From an uncultured Flavobacteriales bacterium (GTDB taxonomy: Bacteria; Bacteroidota; Bacteroidia; Flavobacteriales_D; Crocinitomicaceae), in NCBI GenBank assembly GCA_913056215.1, contig CAJXMN010000014.1:1-39786 (forward strand): 39,786 bases of DNA, given 5' to 3'. Under the pieces are notes generated by a model. It was not told where the DNA came from. It saw only the letters and a list, made by a program, of their open reading frames with translations, and ran no database searches. The position numbers were made by a program, and so were the translations under genes. Shown here one piece after another: positions 15,893 to 28,648 of the stretch. Within the stretch, counting starts at the first letter, position 1; every line of letters starts with the position of its first letter.

Positions 15893-17227
15893 ATGGAGCA
15901 CGTAGTGATTATAGGCAATGGCATTTCGGGAGTAACTGCGGCGCGTTATATCCGTAAAATGTCCGACAAGCGAATAACAATCATTTCGGCTGAAAGCAAG
16001 TATTTTTTTTCAAGAACCGCACTCATGTATATTTACATGGGTCACATGAGTTTTGAAGACACGCAACCCTACGAAGCGCATTTTTGGGATAAAAATAATA
16101 TTGACTTAGTACAAGATTACGTTCAAAAAGTCAATTATGATGACAAAACACTTCACCTGGCTGAGACTACTCCTATCCACTACGACAAGTTGATTCTGGC
16201 TGTAGGATCTAAACCTAACAAATTTGGCTGGAAAGGGCAAGATTATCATGGTGTTCAAGGGCTTTACTCCAAAAAAGATTTAGATCTTATGGAGCGCAAC
16301 ACGCGGAACGCTCAAGAAGCGATTATTGTAGGAGGAGGACTCATCGGCGTTGAGATGGCAGAAATGTTACTCACCCGAAACATTAACGTTACATTTTTGA
16401 TTCGTGAAGATCGTTTTTGGGGAGGAGTGTTGCCCTTGGAAGACAGTCTCATGGTGAAGCGACATCTCGAAAAACATAATGGATTGACCCTTAGACTTGA
16501 AGAAGAGCTCGAGGAGATTGTTGCTGATGAGGAAAAACGCGCAAAAGCAGTCATTACTAAAAAAGGAGAACGGATTCCATGCCAATTTGTGGGACTAACA
16601 GCTGGTGTGAGTCCGAATGTAGATTTCCTCAAAGGTGATCAGCTCGAAATTGAGCGCGGTATTTTGGTCAACCCTGATCTTTCTGCGAACATTCCTGACG
16701 TTTATGCGATAGGTGATTGTGCACAGTTTAAACAACCAAATGGACAGCGTAAGCCGATTGAACAGGTCTGGTATACGGGGAGAATGATGGGCGAAACCGT
16801 CGCTCAAACGATTTGTGGAAGTCCAGTTGAATACAAACCAGGTAATTGGTTTAATTCTGCTAAATTTTTCGATCTTGAATATCAGACTTACGGCTGGGTT
16901 TGGAACGAACTCAAAGAAGGTGAAGCAGAATTCATCTGGAAAAATGATGAAAAAGAACTGTTATTGCATTTCATTTTTGACAAAGAATCACATGAGTTCA
17001 AGGCCATCAACACTTTTGGTATTCGTATGAGACATGAGGTTTTTGACCATTGGCTCAATACCAACGCTTCGATTGAAGAAGTAATTCGCAATTTAAAAAT
17101 GGCCAATTTTGATCCAGAATTTTATAAACATTTCGAAAAAGAGATTATTGAGGCATTCAACAAACAGTTTGATCAAAATATCAAGTTAGCTAAAAATAAG
17201 TGGTGGAAATCTCTACTCCCACAGTAA
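15893..17227 (+). CDS. FAD-dependent NAD(P)H oxidoreductase
   Basis: A 444-residue two-dinucleotide-fold flavoprotein of the nitrite-reductase/ferredoxin-reductase-like pyridine nucleotide-disulfide oxidoreductase class. The FAD site is VVIIGNGISGVTAARY (4-19). The NAD(P)-binding fold is AIIVGGGLIGVEMAE (~143-158), and the second FAD motif is DVYAIGDCAQF (~269-279). An in-frame ATG sits 20 codons into a longer open frame; I start at 15893 because the FAD strand begins at residue 4 and the upstream codons add only an irregular, non-conserved stretch. The C-terminal ~110 residues are not a standard reductase dimerisation domain and may be a partner-docking region. It is 28 bp upstream of a membrane polyferredoxin, so it probably passes NAD(P)H electrons to that protein. 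Confidence 0.85.
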   Translation: MEHVVIIGNGISGVTAARYIRKMSDKRITIISAESKYFFSRTALMYIYMGHMSFEDTQPYEAHFWDKNNIDLVQDYVQKVNYDDKTLHLAETTPIHYDKLILAVGSKPNKFGWKGQDYHGVQGLYSKKDLDLMERNTRNAQEAIIVGGGLIGVEMAEMLLTRNINVTFLIREDRFWGGVLPLEDSLMVKRHLEKHNGLTLRLEEELEEIVADEEKRAKAVITKKGERIPCQFVGLTAGVSPNVDFLKGDQLEIERGILVNPDLSANIPDVYAIGDCAQFKQPNGQRKPIEQVWYTGRMMGETVAQTICGSPVEYKPGNWFNSAKFFDLEYQTYGWVWNELKEGEAEFIWKNDEKELLLHFIFDKESHEFKAINTFGIRMRHEVFDHWLNTNASIEEVIRNLKMANFDPEFYKHFEKEIIEAFNKQFDQNIKLAKNKWWKSLLPQ

Positions 17228-17255
17228 CGATACCTATTAAATAAAAAATTGAATC

Positions 17256-18827
17256 ATGACAGCAATTAATCAATCCATTTCAGGAGACACTGCATCGCTG
17301 AACACCCAACAAAAAATAGGTGCAGGAATTGGAGCTACTGGTCTCATCATACTTTTACTGGCCTCATTCAATGTGGGGTTTCAACCACTTTGGTTATGGC
17401 TCACCATTTCTCTAGCCGCTATTGCCGGAGGTATATTGTGGTACACCCGCGCCACATATGTAGGTCACCCTGAAGGAATAAAAAATGATGGCGTTTATTT
17501 TAGGTCACTAACCTCTAAAGGTTTATATGGATATCTTGCAGGTGTAGGGCTCACTGGATTTTATATCATTTTATACTTCTATCCCGAATACATTGGTCTG
17601 GTTGAAGGGTCGAGCAACGAGGGAATAATCCAGCTTTTTGACCCGCTTAGTAAAAGCCTTAATGGAAACCCTGCTAGTCAATGGTTCGTATACGGAACAC
17701 TTTACACACTAGCGATATTGTTTTTTGGAATTAAATTTATCATCAAATACCGGCACAGTCGCTACCACATTATAAGAACAGCATCCGTCATGTTCTTTCA
17801 ATTGGCCTTCGCCTTTCTAATTCCAGAATTCATGGCGCGCCTCAATGGTGATGGATTAAATTTACCCTACTACGACCTTAAAAATATATGGCCCCTCAAC
17901 TACTACAACTTTGATCAATACCGCGTTGATAAGATGATCAATTCGGGTACAATAGGCATGGCATTACTCATTTTTGGAATTGCCTCTATCTTTATTATCA
18001 CTCCCATTCTCACCTATTTTTACGGAAAGCGCTGGTATTGCTCGTGGGTTTGTGGTTGTGGAGGTCTAGCAGAAACAGCTGGCGATTCTTTCAGACAGCT
18101 GAGTGACAAATCGACGAGGGCCTGGAAAATAGAACGCTGGTTAATTCATTCTGTGGTGGTATTTGTTACCATTTCGACTGTTGCCGTTGTTCACTCTTAC
18201 CTTGGAACAGATACGAGCAAATACTGGTTGACGAAATCTGCTTTCTTATGGATCGTTGGTGGCATTCTTACCCTTATTTTCGCTTGGGTAATGCTGTTCA
18301 AACGTCATAAATTTCAAAAAGATGCGCTTTACGGAGCCGTGGGCTTTTTCGTGGTCATTATTGCATTCATGGGTATTCATGGCCTATCAGATACAGAACA
18401 TATTTTCCTGGTAGAAAAACAAACGGTTCGCGGCGGATACGGCTTTTTAATCGGGTCGATCTTTTCTGGAGTTATCGGCACTGGTTTTTATCCTATCCTC
18501 GGAAATCGCGTTTGGTGTCGCTTCGGGTGTCCAATGGCTGCTATTCTAGGTTTTCAGCAAAAACTACTTTCGCGATTTAGAATTACGACCAACGGCGGTC
18601 AGTGTATTTCATGTGGAAACTGCTCTACTTATTGCGAAATGGGGATTGACGTTCGCGCTTATGCTCAGAAAGGACAAAACATTGTACGCTCTTCGTGCGT
18701 GGGTTGTGGTGTTTGCTCCTCGGTTTGTCCACGGGGCGTGCTCAAGTTAGAAAATGGTCCTTCAGAAGGTCGGGTAGATGACAATCCAATTATAATAGGG
18801 CACGACAATCAACCACGACTTCAATAA
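17256..18827 (+). CDS. Polytopic membrane protein with two [4Fe-4S] clusters (NapH/NosR-like)
   Basis: A 523-residue inner-membrane protein with about eight transmembrane helices. Two Cys motifs lie at membrane edges, YCSWVCGCGG (Cys262, 266, 268) and WCRFGCP (Cys421, 425), as in the NapH/NosR/CcoG polyferredoxin group. The C-terminal domain holds two ferredoxin clusters: CISCGNCSTYC (450, 453, 456, 460) and CVGCGVCSSVCP (481, 484, 487, 491). Family relatives move electrons between membrane carriers and redox enzymes. With the flavoprotein just upstream it looks like an NAD(P)H-fed electron-transfer unit. The terminal acceptor is not encoded nearby. The A-rich sequence before the ATG is typical of initiation in this phylum. 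Confidence 0.85.
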   Translation: MTAINQSISGDTASLNTQQKIGAGIGATGLIILLLASFNVGFQPLWLWLTISLAAIAGGILWYTRATYVGHPEGIKNDGVYFRSLTSKGLYGYLAGVGLTGFYIILYFYPEYIGLVEGSSNEGIIQLFDPLSKSLNGNPASQWFVYGTLYTLAILFFGIKFIIKYRHSRYHIIRTASVMFFQLAFAFLIPEFMARLNGDGLNLPYYDLKNIWPLNYYNFDQYRVDKMINSGTIGMALLIFGIASIFIITPILTYFYGKRWYCSWVCGCGGLAETAGDSFRQLSDKSTRAWKIERWLIHSVVVFVTISTVAVVHSYLGTDTSKYWLTKSAFLWIVGGILTLIFAWVMLFKRHKFQKDALYGAVGFFVVIIAFMGIHGLSDTEHIFLVEKQTVRGGYGFLIGSIFSGVIGTGFYPILGNRVWCRFGCPMAAILGFQQKLLSRFRITTNGGQCISCGNCSTYCEMGIDVRAYAQKGQNIVRSSCVGCGVCSSVCPRGVLKLENGPSEGRVDDNPIIIGHDNQPRLQ

Positions 18828-18911: not shown

Positions 18912-20177
18912 ATGAAAACTACACAATTATTCACCTTTATTATAGGAACAGCAATTGTATTGGCTTCTTGTAAAAAAGAAGGATGTACAGATCAATCAGC
19001 AACAAATTACGACCCTAATGCGGAGAACGATGATGGGTCTTGTGTTTACGATGGTTCTGGCGGAAACAACGATGGTGGAGATGGTGATGATAACACAGAT
19101 AACCTTCAAAATTTAGCGGGTAACGAAAGTTCTCCCCTGACAATATCTGATGTTCATTCCGATAACAGTGTTTATGATTATTATATCGATGGTACTTGGG
19201 AAATCAATGCAGCAGTAACAATTGAACCTGGCGTTCGCATTTTGATGAAATCAGGTGCTCAAGTAGAAGTTAATGAAAATGGCTCACTGACTGCCATCGG
19301 AACGGGAGCAAATAAAATTGCTTTTATTGGTGAACAAGCTGTACCAGGTTACTGGAATTATATTCGTTTTGATGCTTCAAACAATCCTAATAACGAACTG
19401 ACATACGTTGAAGTGAAGCACGCTGGTGGTGACGATTATTACCTGAGTAACGCAGCTGTATTTGTGCGGGGAAAGTCACGACTTAAAATGAACAATACAC
19501 TAATTCAAAACAGTGCCCGCCGCGGTTTAAAAGTTAATGCTGCTGATGGACTCTTAACCGAATTTAGCAACAACACAATTTCAGACTGTGAATCTCACTC
19601 CATTTATTTGCATAACCTGGGTCATCTAGCAAATTTTGCAGGAAATAATAATCTAAGCACTGGTAACACCTACAATAAAATTCAAGTTGGTGGTAATCCA
19701 GTAGGATCTCCTGTCGATATTCCTAATGTAAATTCAACAATTTTACTTGAAGAAACGTCTGATATCAATGCAGATGTGACAATTGCAGCTGGGAACTATT
19801 TTGAAATGGGATCTGGTGCAAAAATTGAAGTGAATAGTAACGGGTCTTTAGCCATGATTGGGAACGCCTCCAACCCTATTACAATCACAGGAAAGCAAGA
19901 AGTTAAAGGTTACTGGAAGTGCATTCGCTTCGACGATAGTAATAACCCTTCAAACGAAATGCAATACGTTGACGTTTCTTATGGGGGTGGTGAAGACTAT
20001 TATTTAGAAAACGCTATGATCTTCGTTAGATCCAGCGGATACTTAACAATGGGTAACTCAAGTGTTACATATAGTGAACGAGACGGAGTGAAAGTAAACT
20101 CAACGGATGGTACCTTCAATGATGAAGGAACTAACACCTTCTCGAATAACGATGGTCAAGATGTAAATCTTCCATAA
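18912..20177 (+). CDS. Lipoprotein with duplicated beta-helix-like domain
   Basis: A 421-residue lipoprotein. The lipobox LASC gives lipidated Cys20. Next comes GCTDQSATNYDPNAENDDGSC (residues 25-45 in part), a motif widespread in secreted Bacteroidota proteins, with two Cys that may bond. An Asp/Gly/Asn-rich linker (48-66) follows. The rest is two copies of a ~125-residue unit, at about 96-223 and 285-412. Both contain a VTI-type strand, a GAxxEVNxNGSL turn, GYWxxIRFDxSNNPxNE, and G-x-DYYLxNAxxFVR. The regular short strands suggest a right-handed parallel beta-helix, as in carbohydrate-active or adhesive surface proteins, but no catalytic residues are identifiable. It is transcribed alone from a strong promoter and ends in a terminator. 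Confidence 0.85.
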   Translation: MKTTQLFTFIIGTAIVLASCKKEGCTDQSATNYDPNAENDDGSCVYDGSGGNNDGGDGDDNTDNLQNLAGNESSPLTISDVHSDNSVYDYYIDGTWEINAAVTIEPGVRILMKSGAQVEVNENGSLTAIGTGANKIAFIGEQAVPGYWNYIRFDASNNPNNELTYVEVKHAGGDDYYLSNAAVFVRGKSRLKMNNTLIQNSARRGLKVNAADGLLTEFSNNTISDCESHSIYLHNLGHLANFAGNNNLSTGNTYNKIQVGGNPVGSPVDIPNVNSTILLEETSDINADVTIAAGNYFEMGSGAKIEVNSNGSLAMIGNASNPITITGKQEVKGYWKCIRFDDSNNPSNEMQYVDVSYGGGEDYYLENAMIFVRSSGYLTMGNSSVTYSERDGVKVNSTDGTFNDEGTNTFSNNDGQDVNLP

Positions 20178-20202
20178 TTGAAAATTTATTTTGTATAATT
20201 TG

Positions 20203-20232
20203 AGGGCGGTTTTAGCGAATCGCCCTTTTTTT
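20203..20232 (+). terminator. Rho-independent terminator after the lipoprotein
   Basis: AGGGCG (20203-20208) pairs with CGCCCT (20221-20226), followed by a run of T to 20232. The next ATG is only 14 bases further on. Confidence 0.85.
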
Positions 20233-20245
20233 AAAAGCTAACGTT

Positions 20246-20845
20246 ATGAAGAAATTTTTAACATTAATAATTGTCATCCTCTTTTTACTTCCTTCTTCCA
20301 CCTTGCAGGCTCAAGCTTATCGGCAGGATCAAGTATATGTGAACGCAGGAGTCAGCTTTGCTTTTAATTGGTATCGGCCGACAGTTAATGCATTTTGGAA
20401 TGACTACAATTATTCCTTTACCCCTCCCCTTATCGTGAGTGTGGAAAAAGGATTGTCCGAATATTTCAGTGCAGGTGTTTATGGTACGCATCGCAGTTAT
20501 GGTTGGGACTACAAACGTATTGATGGATTTTATGAAAATCGCTATACCCGCATGTCTTTTGGAGGACGAGTATCGCTGCACTACGTTGATTTGTTAAACG
20601 AGCATCTCGACCTCGGGCTGCCTGCTGGAGAACTCGATTTGTATATCACTGGAATCTTAGGGTTTAATACTTATAAAGAGTCAATAACGCGACCTTCATA
20701 TCGTGAAACAGATCGCGATCTCGACTTTTTCATCGGACCTGTTTTAGGCGCACGTTATTTTTTCAGCAATAATTTTGGTGTCTATCTAGAAGCTGGACGC
20801 GGTAGTCTTGGACTTGCGAACGGTGGGATCACACTCAAATTCTAG
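20246..20845 (+). CDS. Small outer-membrane beta-barrel-like protein
   Basis: A 199-residue protein with a signal peptide (residues 1-23, LQAQA). The mature part alternates aromatic or hydrophobic with polar residues in strands such as VYVNAGVSFAFNWY, YFSAGVYGTHRSYGW, RMSFGGRVSLHYVDLL, LDLYITGILGFNTY, FFIGPVLGARYFF and FGVYLEAGRGSLG. It ends in GITLKF, with a C-terminal Phe as in outer-membrane barrels. The size fits an eight-strand barrel. No specific function can be assigned. It lies between two terminators, just behind the first, and no clear promoter was found for it, so it may depend on read-through from the lipoprotein gene. Confidence 0.75.
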   Translation: MKKFLTLIIVILFLLPSSTLQAQAYRQDQVYVNAGVSFAFNWYRPTVNAFWNDYNYSFTPPLIVSVEKGLSEYFSAGVYGTHRSYGWDYKRIDGFYENRYTRMSFGGRVSLHYVDLLNEHLDLGLPAGELDLYITGILGFNTYKESITRPSYRETDRDLDFFIGPVLGARYFFSNNFGVYLEAGRGSLGLANGGITLKF

Positions 20846-20855
20846 TAGATCACTT

Positions 20856-20897
20856 GGAAAAAGAATGGGTATTCCATATATGCATTCTTTTTCCTTT
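20856..20897 (+). terminator. Terminator with 12-bp perfect stem
   Basis: GGAAAAAGAATG (20856-20867) pairs perfectly with CATTCTTTTTCC (20883-20894) and is followed by TTT. The stem is AT-rich and the loop is 15 bases. It follows the beta-barrel gene by 10 bp. Confidence 0.7.
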
Positions 20898-20978
20898 AAT
20901 TTCTATTTCACTTTAGTACCACCATAACTTCTGAATTGATCCTAATTTAAAAAGTATCACTTTTTATGAGGGTTTTGC

Positions 20979-20986
20979 TATTTTTG
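20979..20986 (+). promoter_or_regulatory. -7 box of the histidine kinase gene (TATTTTTG)
   Basis: A perfect TAnnTTTG element ends four bases before the ATG at 20991, the same spacing as at xerD and at the tRNA-Ser 5' end. The -33 region is T-rich without a clear TTG. Confidence 0.55.
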
Positions 20987-20990
20987 TTCT

Positions 20991-22853
20991 ATGGAGCAAA
21001 AATCAATTTTCACTTTCCTGGCTATTTGTTTTTTTATAGCGACACAGGTCTGTGGTCAGGATTTGTTTCAAAAAGATTCAACTCTAATTGAACAACACAT
21101 TTCGCAACTTCTTTCGGACACTTCAATCATTGAACAACCAAAAGACGTTGAAGCAGCACTCAAACAGCAATTAGACCATCAACTAAATGACAACACTAGA
21201 AGTTTTATACATTTTAACGTGGCAAAGTATTATTTTGTTAAAGGCCAATTGACACAATCCCTCGGCTACATCCATGAACAAAATATGCCTGACACCCTAC
21301 AATTCTTTCCGAAAATCAAGAATTTGGAGGGTGTCATTTATAGTCTTCAACGTAATCACAACAAAGCTGTTGAAGCCTATCTCAAGGCTGCTGAAAGCTA
21401 TGCCAAACAAAATAAAATTATTCGGCAACATGTGGTTTATAACAACATTGCAAACATCTATCTCGCCTTAGGCGATTATGCTCAAGCACACAAATACAGC
21501 AAAAAATGTTTCAGTGTCATCGGTAATCATCCTGAAAATGAAAATTACCATACGATGAGGGGAATACTCGCTTTATGTGAGGTGAACCTGGGGAATTATC
21601 AAGCCGCAAAACGTCACTTGGAGGCACTCAAATCTACAGATTTAGAAAAAAAAATACTCGCCAAAATCATCACACTTTATGTAGAGGCTGAATACGAACG
21701 TGCTCAAAACAACTATCATAGCTCTATCAAACTTGCCAATTCAAGCTTAGCACTGAGCCAACAACATCAACGTCAACAATATATTCTCATCAGTCACATC
21801 ATTTTGATGAAGAATTATAATACCCTGGCTAAATACGACCGCGCTATTGAGCATGGAGAATCAGCGCAAAGTGTTTTGATCGCAACACATAATCCGACCG
21901 TAAAACACACTATATTTTCTGGTCTTTCTAAAGCCTATGCGGGAATTGGTAAATACAAGAAAGCTTATTCATTTCAGAAAACTTCCGATTCTCTTCGATC
22001 CATTGACCGTAGAAAAGAAAATCGAGCTAAGATTGATAGTTTAATGGTACAATTTGAAACTATTGAGACGCAAAATGAAGTCCTGCAACAACGCAATCAA
22101 ATTCAGCAACAAAATCGAACGATTCAACAACGTAACGACTTTATCCAGCTCATGATATTCATCCTCATACTTATACTATTTCTTAGCGCTATAGGTATTT
22201 TCCTATATCGGCAAAAATTGGCCATTGAACGTAATAAATCGGAAAAGAACATTCTACGTGCACTCAATGAAGGAGAAGAAAAAGAACGTCAACGCATAGC
22301 CTCTGAATTACATGATGGTATTGCATCTGAATTGACTGCACTCAAAATAGCACTTGAACAAAAGGATATTGAGAACGATAACTTCCTGCGTATGACAGCT
22401 CATATCCATGAAGGAGTGCGGCGAATTTCTCATAACCTTTCGCCTATTCACCTGAATGAAATGGGCTTGACAAAAGCAATCAAAACATTTGTTGAAACCA
22501 ATGCAACCTCTAATCAAATCAATTTTTATAGCAATATTACCTCACCCTTGGAATTGTCTCGCAACACGACCTTAATTCTATACAGAGGCACACAGGAAAT
22601 CATTCAAAACGCCCTCAAACATGCTCAAGCTAAAAATATAGATGTTCAGATTATTCGCAATGAAGATCAATTATCCATAAGTGTTGAAGATGATGGTATA
22701 GGCTTTGATACAACAGATCAATCAAAAACGATCGGACTTAATTCGCTACGACAAAGAATTGCTTCTATAGGAGGAGAACTTACTTTTGATTCTACGATTC
22801 GCTCTGGAACTACAATATTTATTTCAATACCTGTCAATGATGGAAAAAAGTAA
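20991..22853 (+). CDS. TPR-containing sensor histidine kinase (NarL-partner type)
   Basis: A 620-residue sensor kinase. A signal-like N-terminus (MEQKSIFTFLAICFFIATQVCGQ) puts the input region outside the membrane. Residues ~50-345 form tetratricopeptide-like helical repeats (for example AVEAYLKAAESYAKQNKI, NIANIYLALGDYAQAHKY). A coiled coil rich in Gln follows, then one transmembrane helix (~382-404). The HisKA_3 motif ERQRIASELHDGIASELTALK has phospho-accepting His441. The HATPase domain (~520-617) shows EIIQNALKHAQA, VEDDGIGFD and GLNSLRQRI. The signal is unknown. The 3' end overlaps the response-regulator start, so the pair is coupled. Confidence 0.92.
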   Translation: MEQKSIFTFLAICFFIATQVCGQDLFQKDSTLIEQHISQLLSDTSIIEQPKDVEAALKQQLDHQLNDNTRSFIHFNVAKYYFVKGQLTQSLGYIHEQNMPDTLQFFPKIKNLEGVIYSLQRNHNKAVEAYLKAAESYAKQNKIIRQHVVYNNIANIYLALGDYAQAHKYSKKCFSVIGNHPENENYHTMRGILALCEVNLGNYQAAKRHLEALKSTDLEKKILAKIITLYVEAEYERAQNNYHSSIKLANSSLALSQQHQRQQYILISHIILMKNYNTLAKYDRAIEHGESAQSVLIATHNPTVKHTIFSGLSKAYAGIGKYKKAYSFQKTSDSLRSIDRRKENRAKIDSLMVQFETIETQNEVLQQRNQIQQQNRTIQQRNDFIQLMIFILILILFLSAIGIFLYRQKLAIERNKSEKNILRALNEGEEKERQRIASELHDGIASELTALKIALEQKDIENDNFLRMTAHIHEGVRRISHNLSPIHLNEMGLTKAIKTFVETNATSNQINFYSNITSPLELSRNTTLILYRGTQEIIQNALKHAQAKNIDVQIIRNEDQLSISVEDDGIGFDTTDQSKTIGLNSLRQRIASIGGELTFDSTIRSGTTIFISIPVNDGKK

Positions 22854-23481
22854 TTTGAACATATTAATTACGGACGATCACGCCATGATTCTGCAGGGAC
22901 TGCACGCTTACATCAACCGACAGCGACCCAATTACGTGGTTTACACTGCAGAAACGAAAGCAGCGATGGACAAACATCTCGAGCAAAATGCAATTGATGT
23001 TTTGTTACTGGATTTAATGATTGGGAAAACAGACGCCCGATTTTTTATCAAATCGCTTAAAGCGAAATACGATGATTTAAAAATTATCGTGATCAGCTCC
23101 CACGAAACCAATGAAATTGTTAAAACACTCATCAACAATGGCGTTAACGGATTTGTAGGTAAATCTCATTCCTCCGAATATATTTTAGAAGCTATTGATC
23201 AATCTCAAGAAAAGTCGTTTTACCTGGACCCTAAAATGGAGAAAAAGTGGGAGCAAACGGCAGATCGTTCCGTGAATGACGACATTCATCTGACGAAAAG
23301 AGAACTGGAAGTTTTACAGGAAACACTCAAGGGGTCATCCATCAGAGCAATTGCCGATGCACTTTTTCTTTCCGAAAAAACCATCGAAAATCACCGCTCC
23401 AATTTATTCAGCAAATTTGAGGTGAAAAATGTAACAACTTTGGTCAAAAAAGCGATGCTTCTGGGGTACCACGAAACATAA
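22837..23481 (+). CDS. LuxR/NarL-family response regulator
   Basis: A 214-residue response regulator. The receiver domain (~8-125) has acidic Asp13 and Asp14, phospho-acceptor Asp59 (VLLLDLMIG) and conserved Lys109 (GFVGKS). The C-terminal HTH (150-212) contains LTKRELEVL, IRAIADALFLSEKTIENHRSNLFSKF, a LuxR/GerE domain. The longer open frame begins at a TTG at 22786 deep inside the kinase gene. I chose the ATG at 22837 (a second ATG is at 22840) because the receiver starts directly after it. It overlaps the kinase by 17 bases and is surely its partner. The target genes are unknown; the T9SS cargo gene just downstream is one candidate. Confidence 0.92.
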   Translation: MMEKSNLNILITDDHAMILQGLHAYINRQRPNYVVYTAETKAAMDKHLEQNAIDVLLLDLMIGKTDARFFIKSLKAKYDDLKIIVISSHETNEIVKTLINNGVNGFVGKSHSSEYILEAIDQSQEKSFYLDPKMEKKWEQTADRSVNDDIHLTKRELEVLQETLKGSSIRAIADALFLSEKTIENHRSNLFSKFEVKNVTTLVKKAMLLGYHET

Positions 23482-23564
23482 TTCCTTTAGCGCAACTTGG
23501 ATGAACAAATTATTTGGGAGTAAACTTTTTAAGTTACCAGCTATTTTTATAACTTGAGCAAGAC

Positions 23565-24953
23565 ATGAAAGAATTATTTCATTTAATCACTGTGCTAACT
23601 TTGACTTTCTCCCTCTCGGCACAAGGTCAATACGATAAATGTTACTTTGGAAGTGCAGGTATTGATTTCGGCGGCTGGTTTCCAACTGCTCTAACTGATA
23701 GCGAAATGGAAACATCAGAAAGTGCTGTATCAATGTGCAGTCCTCAGGGAGATTTGTTGTTTTATTCAAATGGTGGAAGTAGCCCTACAGTTCCTGGTGT
23801 TGCTGGTGCAGTATGGAATGCCAACCACGATATTATGGAAAACGGACTCCTCGGTGACTCCAGCGGTTGTATTAGTTCTTTTCAGGGGGCGGTCGCTTTC
23901 CCTTTTACTGGCACCTCTACTGGCACCTCTACCAAAACAGGTTCAGGCATGTACTACATTTTTATGAGAGACTGTGCAGAAAGTAGTTTCTCTCCACCCA
24001 ACTATAACTCAGGTCTCACCTATTGTGAAATAGACATGAGCGCGAACAGCGGTTTAGGAAAAGTAGTATCAAAAAACAACGTCGTTATTCCATTCCAGTC
24101 GGGTGGAACAGTCAAAACAAATCATGAACCTGTCACCGCAATATTACACGACAATAATCAGGACTGGTGGTTGTTCTCCTACAACAACGACTCCCTTTAT
24201 AGCCTTCAAATTACACAAAACGGCATCAGTCAATATCGCTCATACTTCAAAGGTAAGGGATCACTCGTTTTTTCTCCGGATCGAAAGCTGGTTGCAGCGG
24301 GCCATGAACTCTATTCTTTTAATGCGTTTACGGGTGATTTATCACATCTTTCCTCATTACCCAATGGAAGATATGCTTTCTCTCCAGACGGTCAAAAACT
24401 CTACAGAGTCGATCAAGAACTGATCCAATATGATGTTTCCAGTAGTAACATCCTTAGTTCTGCCGTGACGATCGCGTCAGGAATTGATTGCAATCAGCTA
24501 TACCTAGCACCTGATGGCCGTATTTACTTATACAAGTATGGTGTTACATATCTCCCCGGATATATTGATTGCCCCAATGCAACAGGTATCAATTGTGGTT
24601 TTTCGCTTTCATCCATAGATCTGAATGGTCGCAATGCCAAAAGAGGGTTTACAAATATCCCAGCCAACTACCTCTTCAAAGAAAGTTACGATTGTAATCT
24701 GAGTAATGAAGAACTCCAACATTCATCTGATCAAATCCGGCTATATCCCAATCCCGCTAAAGAGGAATTAAACATCATATTACAAGGATCAGAGTACCCT
24801 ATCCGATGTTCAGTTCATAGCCTCAAAGGAAAACAACTATTCCATCAAACGATCCACCACAAACAAACCACTATAGATATCTCGAAATGGTCTCCTGGCA
24901 TTTATTATTTCAGAAGTGATCAAACAATTAAAAAACTGATTATACAACCCTAA
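23565..24953 (+). CDS. Secreted T9SS cargo protein, beta-propeller-like
   Basis: A 462-residue secreted protein with a signal peptide (residues 1-20, SLSAQG). The central part has beta-propeller-like strands, for example SLVFSPDRKLVAAGHELYSF, RYAFSPDGQKLYRVD and QLYLAPDGRIYLYKY, comparable to PD40/WD40-like blades, and several Cys that could form disulfides. The last ~75 residues start at IRLYPNPAKEELNI and end in GIYYFRSDQTIKKLIIQP, a type A T9SS sorting domain, so it should reach the cell surface. A 12-bp tandem duplication inside it encodes TGTSTGTS. It stands alone between the two-component genes and the glycosyltransferase operon. No catalytic function is evident. Confidence 0.85.
   Translation: MKELFHLITVLTLTFSLSAQGQYDKCYFGSAGIDFGGWFPTALTDSEMETSESAVSMCSPQGDLLFYSNGGSSPTVPGVAGAVWNANHDIMENGLLGDSSGCISSFQGAVAFPFTGTSTGTSTKTGSGMYYIFMRDCAESSFSPPNYNSGLTYCEIDMSANSGLGKVVSKNNVVIPFQSGGTVKTNHEPVTAILHDNNQDWWLFSYNNDSLYSLQITQNGISQYRSYFKGKGSLVFSPDRKLVAAGHELYSFNAFTGDLSHLSSLPNGRYAFSPDGQKLYRVDQELIQYDVSSSNILSSAVTIASGIDCNQLYLAPDGRIYLYKYGVTYLPGYIDCPNATGINCGFSLSSIDLNGRNAKRGFTNIPANYLFKESYDCNLSNEELQHSSDQIRLYPNPAKEELNIILQGSEYPIRCSVHSLKGKQLFHQTIHHKQTTIDISKWSPGIYYFRSDQTIKKLIIQP
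23907..23930 (+). repeat. 12-bp in-frame tandem duplication
   Basis: ACTGGCACCTCT occurs twice in tandem (23907-23918 and 23919-23930). It encodes two copies of Thr-Gly-Thr-Ser in a Gly/Thr/Ser-rich loop of the T9SS cargo protein and keeps the frame. Confidence 0.9.
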
Positions 24954-25010: not shown

Positions 25011-25724
25011 ATGAATCTTAACATGAAGGTTGAGCACCAACATATTTTCGTAGTTATACCTGCGTTCAACGAAGAGCAGTCCATAGGTAAAGTGATTGCT
25101 GAAATCCCACTCATTGATAAAAAAAATGTTATCGTAGTAAGCAACAACTCTACAGACGCTACGGAAAAAGTGGCACTAGAAGCTGGCGCGACAGTGCTGT
25201 CAGAACAACGAAAAGGTTATGGATGGGCATGTCTTAAAGGGATCGATCATGCTATTGAAGAAAGTGCTGAAATTATTGTCTTTATGGACGGGGATTACTC
25301 CGATTTTCCCGAACAAATGACGAACGTAATCGCTCCTATATTGGATAAAAATATGGATCTCGTCATAGGATCTCGCGCACTCGGACAAAAAGAAAAAGGA
25401 TCAATGACCTTCCCGCAAGTGTTTGGCAATTGGTTATCAACACATTTGTTGAAAATTTTTTACCGGGCTCATTTCACAGACCTTGGACCTTTTCGCGCAA
25501 TTAAAACGCACGCATTACAAAAGCTCCAAATGTCAGATAAAACCTACGGTTGGACGATTGAAATGCAAATAAAAGCAGCTCAACATCAGCTTCATTTTTG
25601 TGAAGTTCCCGTCGATTATAAACAGCGAATTGGAACCTCAAAAGTAAGTGGAACCATAAAAGGTGCTGTTTTGGCAGGAATAAAAATTATCTTTGCAGTG
25701 TTTAAGTACAAATTTGTGCGATGA
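25011..25724 (+). CDS. GT2 glycosyltransferase, polyprenyl-phosphate-sugar synthase-like
   Basis: A 237-residue GT-A enzyme like dolichyl-phosphate mannose/glucose synthases. It has VVIPAFNEEQSIGKVI (14-29), VVSNNSTDAT, the metal-binding MDGDYSDFPEQM, GSRALG, and FTDLGPFRAIK ending the catalytic domain. No transmembrane tail is present, so it is a soluble or peripheral form. Such enzymes load a sugar from a nucleotide donor onto undecaprenyl phosphate, to be used by integral-membrane GT-C enzymes. One is encoded two genes downstream, which supports this role. ATG 25011 is used; ATG 25023 (residue 5) is a possible alternative start. Its stop overlaps the next start by 4 bases (ATGA). Confidence 0.85.
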   Translation: MNLNMKVEHQHIFVVIPAFNEEQSIGKVIAEIPLIDKKNVIVVSNNSTDATEKVALEAGATVLSEQRKGYGWACLKGIDHAIEESAEIIVFMDGDYSDFPEQMTNVIAPILDKNMDLVIGSRALGQKEKGSMTFPQVFGNWLSTHLLKIFYRAHFTDLGPFRAIKTHALQKLQMSDKTYGWTIEMQIKAAQHQLHFCEVPVDYKQRIGTSKVSGTIKGAVLAGIKIIFAVFKYKFVR

Positions 25725-27334
25725 GCGAGCTTTTAATAACAGCAATTATTGATAATGAACCAACATGGATGTTCAACTGGGGCGATGCATTTGGTTTCGA
25801 TCATTACTGGTCTCACATTCTGGCTAAGTCTATTCTAGCCCTTTACGGATTATGCCTTCTGCTCATTTTCTTTTACAGCGTGCTTCAGCTTTCCCTGGCC
25901 GTCAATTACAATCGTCACAAAGCAGTAAAGGATAAGCAACCAAAACCGGACTTTTCGGCTGATTCAGCTCCTCATGTCACGGTTCAACTTCCCATTTTTA
26001 ACGAATATTATATTGCTGAACGTATTATAGAAAAAGTTTCACGGCTCGATTACCCCTTGAACAAACTCGAAATCCAAGTACTCGATGATTCCACAGATGA
26101 AACTAAAGAACTAATTGTTCGGAAAGTGAAAGAAGTGCGAAACGAATATAATGTTGATATTCAACATATTCATCGAACTAATCGCAAGGGTTATAAAGCA
26201 GGAGCACTCGATGAGGCGCTACCCGACGCTAAAGGAGAATTTGTAGCAATTTTCGACGCAGATTTTTTACCCAAACCGGATTTTTTGAAAAACACGATTC
26301 CCTATTTTAAAAATGAAAACGTGGGTGTTGTGCAGACACGTTGGGGGCACATCAACAAAAATTATTCGCTCTTAACAGAACTACAAGCTTTTGGACTCAA
26401 TGGTCATTTTGCTATCGAACAAGGTGGGCGAAGTGCATCAAACCATTACATCAATTTCAATGGAACAGGTGGCGTCTGGCGAAAAATCTGTATTGATTCT
26501 GCCGGTGGATGGGAGTGCGATACACTTACAGAAGATTTGGATTTGAGTTATCGTGCTCAAATGAAAGGATGGAAATTTCAATATTTAGAAGATGTTGTAG
26601 CTCCAGCCGAACTTCCTATCACCATGAGCGCTTTAAAAGGTCAACAACATCGCTGGATGAAAGGCGGTGCCGAATGTTTCCGAAAAATAGCTGGTCAACT
26701 ACTAACCAAAAAAGGTATTCGATTTACAGATCGTATTCACGGACTCTCTCACCTATTTAATTCTTCTGTTTTTATTTTTATTCTTTTGTTGGGATTACTG
26801 AGTTTACCAGTTCTTCATATTAAAGATAGTTTTGCAGACCTCAATTACTTCATACAGTTCGGTAGTATTTTTATCCTATCAACCTTCTTTTTGATGTATT
26901 ATTACTGGAATTCTTATCGCGATAAAACAACCAATAAAACACAATCACTGGGACAGTTTATCATTCGTTTTTTTCAATTCCTAATAGTGTCAATGGGGTT
27001 ATCACTCAATAATGCTGTTGCAGTTATCGAAGGCTATCTAGGTATTAAAAGTTCATTTGTTCGTACTCCAAAATTCAACGTAGCTAGTAAAAGCGACAAA
27101 ATCAATAATAAATACGATAAAAAGTCCATCTCTTTAATTACTATTGGTGAAGGCGTCTTGTTTGTAATTTTTGCCTTTACTGCGATCAATCGACTCATAT
27201 ACGGAGATTTGGGTATGGTTCCCTTTCATCTTATGCTCGCTGCAGGCTATGGAATTGTCTTTTTCTATGGTATTCTAGAAGCTAAACCTGCAATGTTTAA
27301 CTTCGTTCCTCGTTTTAGTACCAGCAACGTATAA
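25721..27334 (+). CDS. Membrane GT2 glycosyltransferase, cellulose-synthase/glucosylceramide-synthase-like
   Basis: A 537-residue inner-membrane glycosyltransferase with the D,D,D,QxxRW pattern of processive-type GT2 enzymes: LDDSTDET (Asp122/123), FDADF (Asp179/181), TEDLDLS (Glu271, Asp272) and QQHRW (308-312). One transmembrane helix precedes the catalytic domain (~36-58). About four to five follow it (for example FIFILLLGLLSLPVL, FILSTFFLMYYYW, FLIVSMGLSL, LFVIFAFTAI, MLAAGYGIVFFYGI). The same pattern occurs in polysaccharide synthases and in single-sugar glycolipid transferases, and sequence alone does not decide between them. No PilZ domain or other cellulose-operon genes are nearby, so a glycolipid role seems more likely. 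It is translationally coupled to the gene before and 3 bp from the one after. Confidence 0.88.
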   Translation: MSELLITAIIDNEPTWMFNWGDAFGFDHYWSHILAKSILALYGLCLLLIFFYSVLQLSLAVNYNRHKAVKDKQPKPDFSADSAPHVTVQLPIFNEYYIAERIIEKVSRLDYPLNKLEIQVLDDSTDETKELIVRKVKEVRNEYNVDIQHIHRTNRKGYKAGALDEALPDAKGEFVAIFDADFLPKPDFLKNTIPYFKNENVGVVQTRWGHINKNYSLLTELQAFGLNGHFAIEQGGRSASNHYINFNGTGGVWRKICIDSAGGWECDTLTEDLDLSYRAQMKGWKFQYLEDVVAPAELPITMSALKGQQHRWMKGGAECFRKIAGQLLTKKGIRFTDRIHGLSHLFNSSVFIFILLLGLLSLPVLHIKDSFADLNYFIQFGSIFILSTFFLMYYYWNSYRDKTTNKTQSLGQFIIRFFQFLIVSMGLSLNNAVAVIEGYLGIKSSFVRTPKFNVASKSDKINNKYDKKSISLITIGEGVLFVIFAFTAINRLIYGDLGMVPFHLMLAAGYGIVFFYGILEAKPAMFNFVPRFSTSNV

Positions 27335-27337
27335 ATT

Positions 27338-28648
27338 ATGACTCGTTATGTTAAGGCGGCGCTGAGTATCTACTTTGTCTCGCTGTTCTGTTTTATATTT
27401 TGGGGAAATCAGAACAACTTTTTAACTTCCTGGGGGTGCTACTCGGGCCTTTTTATCGCTTACGCCTATCTCGTTCATAATCGACAGTATTGCTCAGTGG
27501 AAAAATGGGAAATTTATGCATTTGTGGCTGCAATCATCCCCTTTCTAACTCTTCCTCAATTATCTCCAGATTTTTACCGTTTCTTGTGGGATGGGGAACT
27601 AACCAATAGAGGTATTCATCCCTATGCCTTCACTCCCAACGAAATCATGGAAAATTCGGCCATAAAAAAAGATGCGCTGATCAGCGAACTTTATGAAAAT
27701 ATCACACTGCTCTCGCGTCAACATTACTCACCGTATCCTACTGTAAGTCAGCTTTACTATGTTGCAGCTACATTTTTTACTGATAACATCATCCTTGCAA
27801 CCACAGTTTTACGCATGTTGATTTTGGGGACACTGATTATTGGAGTACGCTATTTAAAAAAACTATTAGCTTTATTTTCTTTACCCTCCCATAACTTAGT
27901 AATCGTACTACTCAACCCTCTCATTATTATAGAAGTTATCGGTAATTTGCACTTTGAGGGAATTGTAGCTTGTTCAATCATCATAGGTGTTTACTACATG
28001 CTTCAAAAAAAACACCTCATGGGAAGCTTATTTTGGTCGATGGCTATTGCAATCAAACTTACCCCCCTACTCTTACTTCCTTTGTTCTGGAGGTATCTGG
28101 GTGCACGACGATCACTTTTGAACTACGCCTATATCGTCATTTTTTCCACTGCTATTCTACTTATATTTCTTTGGCCACCATACGTAGCTAATTTTCTGAG
28201 AAGTATTACACTGTACTTTAATAATTTTGAATTCAACGGCAGTGTTTTCGAGGTTATACAATGGACCGTTGAGTTCTTTCAAACTGAAAGTTCGGTGACA
28301 ATTGCCGGCCCGATCACGAGCATACTTGCTTTTATAACTATACTAACCATAGCCTTTATCAAAAGACCTCGAAATGCAACGCATTGGTTATCTAAAATGG
28401 AATGGTCTTACTTAATTTTCCTACTTCTAGGGACTACTGTACATCCGTGGTATATCGTTCTTCCCCTTTGCTTCACCGTATTTACGAAAAATAAGCTCAC
28501 ATGGTACTGGTCTTATTTGATTTTCTTAAGCTATGGTTTTTACGCTTTTCCGGCAAGTTCTACAGGTTCACTGCTTATCTTTATCGAATACGGTGCTCTA
28601 CTCTTTATATTCATTCGCTCTCAACTGTCGAAGCCTTTCTTCCAATAA
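27338..28648 (+). CDS. GT-C membrane glycosyltransferase (mannosyltransferase-like)
   Basis: A 436-residue polytopic membrane protein with about ten helices. After the first two or three helices comes LSPDFYRFLWDGELTNRGIHPYAF, which matches the Asp-x-Tyr-Arg-x-x-x-Asp-Gly loop of polyprenyl-phosphate-mannose-dependent MptA/B-like and related GT-C enzymes. A later loop GNLHFEGIV and the late THWLSKMEW-VHPWYIV segment are also typical. GT-C enzymes use polyprenyl-phosphate sugars on the periplasmic side, which would pair with the first gene of the operon. The 3' stop directly abuts the stop of the convergent unknown gene (TAATTA). Donor and acceptor are unknown. Confidence 0.8.
   Translation: MTRYVKAALSIYFVSLFCFIFWGNQNNFLTSWGCYSGLFIAYAYLVHNRQYCSVEKWEIYAFVAAIIPFLTLPQLSPDFYRFLWDGELTNRGIHPYAFTPNEIMENSAIKKDALISELYENITLLSRQHYSPYPTVSQLYYVAATFFTDNIILATTVLRMLILGTLIIGVRYLKKLLALFSLPSHNLVIVLLNPLIIIEVIGNLHFEGIVACSIIIGVYYMLQKKHLMGSLFWSMAIAIKLTPLLLLPLFWRYLGARRSLLNYAYIVIFSTAILLIFLWPPYVANFLRSITLYFNNFEFNGSVFEVIQWTVEFFQTESSVTIAGPITSILAFITILTIAFIKRPRNATHWLSKMEWSYLIFLLLGTTVHPWYIVLPLCFTVFTKNKLTWYWSYLIFLSYGFYAFPASSTGSLLIFIEYGALLFIFIRSQLSKPFFQ

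Follow-up and report, generated by a model that had tools for sequence, protein, structure and literature searches.

A flavoprotein and an iron–sulfur membrane protein form a conserved gene pair that keeps company with glycosyltransferases in Bacteroidota

Two adjoining genes of an uncultured Flavobacteriales bacterium (Crocinitomicaceae; assembly GCA_913056215.1, contig CAJXMN010000014.1) encode an NAD(P)H flavoprotein and a polytopic membrane protein with two ferredoxin clusters, here called MEM. The window, that is the whole stretch of DNA analysed, comprises positions 1 to 39,786 of this contig. We find that the two genes form a real and conserved pair and that MEM is accompanied almost strictly by two glycosyltransferases. 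We suggest that, on balance, the pair serves a dedicated glycosylation module as its redox arm, a proposal which joins the link to the glycosyltransferases with an electron flow from NAD(P)H via flavin to iron–sulfur clusters. The pair and its motifs are located as follows.

15893..17227, plus strand: NAD(P)H flavoprotein of the NirB/ferredoxin-reductase type, 444 amino acids (aa) with an ATG start, assigned by Pfam and fold match.
17256..18827, plus strand: MEM, a predicted 10-helix membrane protein with two ferredoxin clusters, 523 aa (Fer4_5 and dicluster ferredoxin above cut-off, alignments, model).
18039..18059, plus strand: CxxxCxC motif of MEM (C262, C266, C268) at the predicted cytoplasmic membrane edge, invariant in 48 sequences.
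18516..18530, plus strand: CxxxC motif of MEM (C421, C425), invariant in 48 sequences.
18603..18728, plus strand: two ferredoxin-type [4Fe-4S] motifs of MEM (C450–C460, C481–C491), Fer4_9/Fer4_10 above cut-off, cysteines invariant.

A first-pass annotation, made from the sequence alone, had described a two-gene unit with a gap of 28 bp between the flavoprotein stop and the MEM start on the same strand; coordinates, strand and lengths (444 and 523 aa) hold. Co-occurrence was assessed with profile searches, since gene-calling by long non-overlapping open reading frames (ORFs) fails in GC-rich contigs. Among 296 Bacteroidota genomes the flavoprotein was found in 60, MEM in 61 and both in 60. The genes adjoin in 54 of these 60 genomes and lie on different contigs in the other six. 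Up to two small unlabelled ORFs in between being tolerated, the pair also adjoins in 30 of 33 loci of relatives, in 78 of 80 named loci (the best 80 of at least 587 confirmed relatives, by title mostly Flavobacteriaceae) and in 23 of 29 loci elsewhere in the phylum. Five of the 34 paired-type loci of the phylum set gave no MEM ORF. One of these cases is an antisense artefact (L210) and four are the flavoprotein half of a split pair (L213, L216, L233, L245). The flavoprotein missing from L217 is a gene-calling artefact, as by profile search it adjoins MEM. Weak MEM matches in G008, G029 and G039 were not scored as MEM. The neighbourhood set omits G058, which is split over two contigs.

Ten further genomes gave MEM matches of 160–214 bits within long frames, and in all ten a flavoprotein and MEM are fused in one open frame of 773–889 aa. 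Eight fused frames were scanned with Pfam; for the other two NCBIfam was used, and there the top scores went to YpdA and thioredoxin reductase. The same membrane protein goes with two different flavoprotein types. None of the ten genomes carries an unfused MEM in addition, which is not significant alone (P = 0.22). In either form MEM is present in 71 of the 296 genomes. The searches for co-occurrence and fusion that the first-pass annotation had proposed both speak for the pair, the latter with another flavoprotein type.

The setting of the pair had been misread. The pathway was held to be not explained by known neighbours, and yet two glycosyltransferases encoded downstream in the window track MEM.

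25011..25724, plus strand: GT_c2 (c2), a glycosyltransferase of the GT2 type resembling dolichol monophosphate mannose (DPM) synthase, core partner of MEM (Glycos_transf_2, 5.9e-20; profile match to 5mlz; co-occurrence).
25721..27334, plus strand: GT_c3 (c3), a membrane GT2, cellulose-synthase-like (Glyco_tranf_2_3, 2.1e-23), which sits between c2 and c4 in many loci.
27338..28648, plus strand: GT_c4 (c4), a polytopic GT-C resembling MptA/PIG-M, core partner of MEM (profile match; co-occurrence).

We found c2 in 70 of the 296 genomes, namely in 69 of the 71 with MEM in either form and in one of the 225 without (Fisher 5e-64). For c4 the counts are 48/48 genomes with MEM and 1/32 without; the 80 genomes of this comparison (48 of 71 and 32 of 225) were picked for family spread, and this before the search was run. 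Six families contain both states among the genomes listed, and there c2 tracks MEM with G189 as the sole exception. Within eight genes downstream of MEM and on the same strand, c2 is found in 25 of 30 loci of relatives and 72 of 79 named loci, c3 in 19 and 72, and c4 in 18 and 54, respectively. The gene spacing is operon-like. In the window four genes (18912–24953), among them a sensor kinase and a LuxR-type regulator, lie between MEM and c2; they are present in two of seven loci of the same genus (L033, L049) and absent in L031, L032 and L034–L036.

Could the neighbours simply share ancestry without a common function? Gene order is kept chiefly within Flavobacteriales, and the genomes of the sample are related to one another, as this explanation would have it. 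However, c2 lies more than 8 kb off or on another contig in 43 of the 69 genomes with MEM, thus synteny alone is insufficient to account for the coupling. The order is moreover shuffled (L222 included), and a compact unit exists in another phylum. We consider mere common descent highly improbable and a dedicated link of the pair to the glycosyltransferases very likely. Six loci (L253, L259, L260, L262, L270, L271) have c2, c3 and c4 clustered away from MEM; four of 38 c2 regions yielded no c2 ORF (L274, L275, L278, L288).

Pseudoalteromonas sp. Bsw20308 carries the compact unit on a large plasmid; its fused form aligns to 82% of the query, with 42.5% identity. Read in one direction, the order of genes is a hypothetical gene, a c3-like glycosyltransferase, a GT87-type gene, the fused MEM, c2, a DUF2064 gene and a GT2 which by BLAST is TIGR04283-like (32% identity). 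Two IS481 transposases lie upstream. Among 104 matching plasmids this is the sole record with a query coverage of at least 80%. The unit looks self-contained and transferred, and with it the gene set is met once in Gammaproteobacteria, beyond the 28 Bacteroidota families over which it extends in the sample.

In a genome of the same genus as the source (G006; L049, 2047–9888) a deletion joins flavoprotein residues 1–116 to MEM 345–523, which is read in a different frame. The c3 gene of this genome is broken into two frames, whereas c2 and c4 are each matched in one. This points either to decay of the module or to an assembly error.

The flavoprotein matches Pyr_redox_2 (E = 1.2e-48). Its top NCBIfam match is the N-terminal part of NirB, with 145 bits far under the cut-off of 578 bits. 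In a fold search the predicted model (pLDDT 93.8) aligns over 400–440 columns with the ferredoxin and putidaredoxin reductases 9li3, 3lb8 and 3lxd (TMq 0.75–0.78). The assignment to a NirB-like type made at first pass stands as NirB/ferredoxin-reductase type. The supposedly extra C-terminal part of about 110 residues does not, as by the model it is for the most part the C-terminal domain which ferredoxin reductases usually have; the terminal stretch, about 385–444, is helical. The redox cysteine of the CoA-disulfide reductase/NADH oxidase class, whose position near residue 42 was taken from an alignment with 3cgb, is found in none of 47 flavoproteins, 38 of which have Thr and nine Pro there. 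Position 170, Glu in 3lxd, is Val or Ile in all 47 and is followed by Arg171 in 46. Because of this Val/Ile170–Arg171 stretch and of BphA4 mutants with Arg at the place equivalent to Arg171, which we take to favour NADPH, the cofactor is probably NADPH. A divergently oriented NAD kinase gene which adjoins the pair in six loci from five families (Pfam was run on two of the six) fits with NADPH use.

MEM had been described as polytopic, with two [4Fe-4S] clusters and with CxxxCxC and CxxxC motifs at the membrane edge, and both the motifs and the 10-helix model agree with this. All 13 motif cysteines, including the cluster ligand sets C450/453/456/460 and C481/484/487/491, are invariant in alignments of 18 and of 48 sequences. 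Across forms they are kept in at least 90% of 48 paired sequences and in six of six fused ones. A helix 4–5 pattern (F144, Y146, Y150, Y170, T175, Q182, P190) is also common to paired and fused MEM. The predicted model (pLDDT 75.8) has 10 long helices and is poor in the cluster region, with 450–463 below 50. Together with this model the mean K+R and D+E per loop of the 48 sequences would place both termini and all cysteine motifs on the cytoplasmic side. Against solved structures the MEM profile matched one chain, within the ferredoxin-like stretch.

By phylogeny, the MEM copies of the window and of L031 belong with those of Flavobacteriaceae (96/99) and not with that of L033 from the same genus. 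Among the matches listed, identity of the window's MEM to Flavobacteriaceae copies reaches 73%, and that to L033–L036 of the same genus is just 52–54%. For the neighbouring flavoprotein identity is 67–77% within the genus and 56–62% to Flavobacteriaceae. It may be that only MEM was exchanged at this site.

With 28.3 bits against Fer4_5 (PF12801; gathering cut-off 22) MEM is a superfamily member. The nearest NCBIfam family is NapH, with scores (TIGR02163, 46.4 bits; NF007013, 37.4 bits) that fall well short of the cut-offs of 213 and 234. The CcoG model TIGR02745 is not among the 24 NCBIfam matches. The first membrane-edge motif of MEM reads CxxxC[GST]CG, without proline, in 17 paired and six fused rows and in further fused frames; the second is CxxxCP. 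CcoG, NapH, NosR and YccM have CxxxCP where MEM has CxxxCxC, and since NapH, NosR and RdhC are defined by two CX3CP motifs (PMC5928378), MEM falls outside this definition by its first motif. A tree built from 31 rows unites paired and fused MEM in one group (94/89) and sets CcoG in a group of its own (100/100), with YccM, NapH and NosR apart on long branches. The tree contains one row each of NapH, NosR and YccM and five of CcoG; six of 12 CcoG loci had been used, and the sixth row (L305) was dropped since its ORF reading gave 91 aa.

A role of MEM as a copper reductase or oxidase-assembly factor of the CcoG type would be in line with the distant homology and with a GIDVR/GIDIR stretch which follows the first cluster in both proteins. 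However, the source genome has a separate CcoG (contig C5; 438 bits, cut-off 317), and this together with the missing TIGR02745 match, the CxxxCxC motif and the separate tree group makes such a role extremely improbable. An identity of MEM with CcoG, NapH or NosR is rejected on score, motif and tree. Two findings had been named in advance as speaking against the proposed unit, namely genes that are not conserved together and a firm clustering of MEM with CcoG, NosR or NapH; neither applies. MEM is most likely a variant within the NapH/CcoG superfamily which has not been described previously.

The more serious alternative is a respiratory-type transfer in which electrons pass from NAD(P)H via MEM to the quinone pool or to another terminal acceptor, with the glycosyltransferases as bystanders. 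The Fer4_5 membership, the proximity to NapH and conserved aromatic residues on MEM helices 3–4, toward the outer side, are in keeping with it, and NapH-like proteins serve many oxidoreductases (PMC8238504). On the other hand the occurrence of c2 and c4 follows that of MEM in different families and on separate contigs. MEM gave no Pfam match to an FMN-binding domain at E = 0.001, unlike NosR and RdhC. As already noted at first pass for nap, nos and nrf, no terminal oxidoreductase was found nearby in a Pfam scan of 28 of the 36 window ORFs of at least 100 aa (the other eight measure 100–166 aa). Because the glycosyltransferases follow MEM over 28 families, even on other contigs, a biosynthetic role is likelier than a respiratory one, which we regard as unlikely.

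Two further alternatives arise from arsenic-related neighbours. In many Flavobacteriaceae the pair adjoins genes for TIGR04282, TIGR04283, PNP, DUF547 and ArsM, and it follows arsenosugar genes. MEM might thus act in arsenosugar or arsenolipid synthesis only. Indeed, of the 19 genomes in which the arsenosugar ArsM (NF038099) was found, 18 also contain MEM, paired or fused, and in 12 of these 18 the two lie within 13 kb (coordinates among the matches listed), and neighbourhoods are shared in Flavobacteriaceae. But this ArsM is absent from 53 of the 71 genomes with MEM, including the source genome (no match to NF038099 at E = 1e-80), and neither ArsS nor ArsM occurs in the 26 kb read around the Pseudoalteromonas unit. 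An exclusive arsenic role is accordingly a poor candidate; as the sole role of MEM the arsenosugar pathway is rejected on the co-occurrence counts.

Alternatively, MEM might supply low-potential electrons to the radical-SAM enzyme ArsS (TIGR04167). ArsS is found in 48 of the 71 genomes with MEM and in 73 of the 225 others, and its gene adjoins the pair in families f39 and f35 and the fused MEM in f27. Against this stand the 23 genomes with MEM that lack ArsS, the 73 with ArsS that lack MEM, and the far better tracking of MEM by c2 and c4; we give this explanation very little weight. TIGR04283, present in 48/71 genomes with MEM and 108/225 others, is a poor predictor. An arsenic link of MEM is common yet not needed, and genes labelled as arsenosugar biosynthesis often accompany the module where the arsenosugar ArsM is absent. 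ArsS may have other products, since 102 of 121 ArsS genomes are without the arsenosugar ArsM. The source genome itself carries ArsS (TIGR04167), rhodanese-like and TIGR04282-like genes on contig C67 (L246) and TIGR04283 beside DUF547 on C8 (L299). On contig C152 (1723–2448) it has an above-cut-off match to the C-terminal family of OvoA (TIGR04345), thus ovothiol synthesis is possible.

What could the partner glycosyltransferases do? The match of the c2 profile to 5mlz, a dolichol monophosphate mannose synthase, runs over 3–211 of 234 and so takes in nearly the full length. Equal scores come from glucosyl-3-phosphoglycerate synthases, but for the first half only. The c4 profile matches GPI mannosyltransferase 1 only, which we take to be PIG-M, and the MptA and MptB models match c4, both under cut-off.

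We suggest that the redox arm of the glycosylation module might work in these following steps. NAD(P)H, probably NADPH, would reduce the FAD of the flavoprotein, and the two ferredoxin clusters, on the cytoplasmic side of MEM, would then take up the electrons. This part, from NAD(P)H via flavin to iron–sulfur clusters, is likely, and that electrons from NAD(P)H enter the membrane, as the first-pass annotation had it, is plausible. From the clusters the electrons could reach the membrane-edge cysteine motifs and then a substrate in the membrane which belongs to the pathway of the partner glycosyltransferases. By resemblance c2 would load a hexose on polyprenyl phosphate and c4, being of the GT-C type, would use such lipid-linked sugars, with c3 as a further transferase. 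That a probable polyprenyl-phosphate-sugar synthase and a GT-C enzyme accompany MEM almost strictly points to the carrier or a lipid-linked sugar as substrate. On this reading the pair would be a membrane reductase driven by NAD(P)H and devoted to a polyprenyl-phosphate-sugar pathway. The most economical target of MEM might be an isoprenoid carrier or a lipid-linked intermediate, and that the reduced species is such a carrier or its sugar conjugate is a tentative idea. Still more speculatively, MEM could reduce the polyprenyl-phosphate carrier with NADPH electrons delivered by the separate or fused flavoprotein and so provide a dolichol-like lipid for a DPM-synthase/GT-C pathway. If true, the CxxxCxC and CxxxC site would be an unusual metal or thiol centre which acts on a lipid inside the membrane. 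In eukaryotes polyprenol is converted to dolichol in three redox steps (PMC11607601), and the reference list of that paper cites work according to which mammalian glycosyltransferases prefer dolichyl forms.

Several points weigh against this proposal. Two genomes with MEM and c4 have no c2 above cut-off (G152, G169), and G189 has c2, c3 and c4 without MEM in one region (L301) which includes DUF547. Between c3 and c2 this region holds a thioredoxin-like gene (by eye), a two-component pair and an outer-membrane-like gene; its gene content is possibly a natural replacement of MEM. The c2 counts refer to matches above a cut-off, E = 1e-65, of our own choice, and P values are overstated by the relatedness of the sampled genomes. 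Elsewhere in the phylum, outside Flavobacteriales, c2 is near MEM in just 4 of 28 loci. A search for solved folds similar to the MEM model yielded no usable match (best E 0.077, TM < 0.2). In the literature, the nearest characterised kin of MEM act in respiration (PMC8238504), and the polyisoprenols of bacteria are given as fully unsaturated (PMC5088576), an argument against reduction of the carrier. At most 8 Fe were found in NosR (PMC5928378), which speaks against a third cluster at such cysteine motifs. While the data show the pair, its fusion and the coupling of the gene set, we infer the cofactors, the use of NADPH, the topology (from charge pattern and model), the direction of electron flow, the acceptor and the exact reactions of c2–c4.

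We know of no redox step in the NapH/CcoG superfamily that is so tightly tied to lipid-linked glycosylation. In the open-access PMC literature we found no prior description of a module of flavoprotein, MEM and glycosyltransferases. An orphan electron-transfer pair thereby becomes a testable gene set of flavoprotein, MEM, GT2 and GT-C.

How does this set compare with known systems? The flavoprotein shares with NirB the fold of the N-terminal part and the NAD(P)H chemistry but is without the sulfite-reductase-type domains, and it resembles ferredoxin reductases in fold and chemistry, although it is dedicated to MEM. The likeness to YpdA and thioredoxin reductase belongs to the flavoprotein part of the fused form and not to the paired form. 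CcoG/RdxA/FixG have in common with MEM the polytopic build, the two clusters and the GIDVR/GIDIR stretch; they differ in the first motif and in clade, and the source genome keeps its own CcoG elsewhere. NapH, NosR and RdhC (PceC) are alike in their membrane helices and two membrane-edge cysteine motifs, and NapH and NosR also in two C-terminal ferredoxin clusters (PMC5928378). NapH itself oxidises quinol and supplies the periplasmic nitrate reductase, and the window ORFs that were scanned include no nap gene. MEM is set apart from them by its NAD(P)H flavoprotein partner, by glycosyltransferase company in place of a reductase and, as regards NosR and RdhC, by the lack of their FMN-binding domain. 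The flavinylated systems of Meheust et al. 2021 (PMC8238504) likewise combine a NapH-like protein with a modular electron-transfer set, and the reactions of most NapH-like systems are described there as unknown. MEM, in contrast, has no FMN-binding domain, none was noticed beside the pair in the window, and the donor would be cytosolic NAD(P)H. Arsenosugar gene clusters (NF038099, TIGR04167, TIGR04282, TIGR04283) are frequent neighbours with partial co-occurrence. The working analogy is eukaryotic dolichol synthesis with DHRSX and SRD5A3 (PMC11607601), where NAD(P)H-dependent reduction feeds DPM-type and GT-C-type enzymes. A polyprenol reductase of the dolichol type acts on the alpha-isoprene unit of its substrate. 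The redox proteins there are unrelated in kind to the pair, and by analogy a similar reduction of the carrier by MEM may be envisaged.

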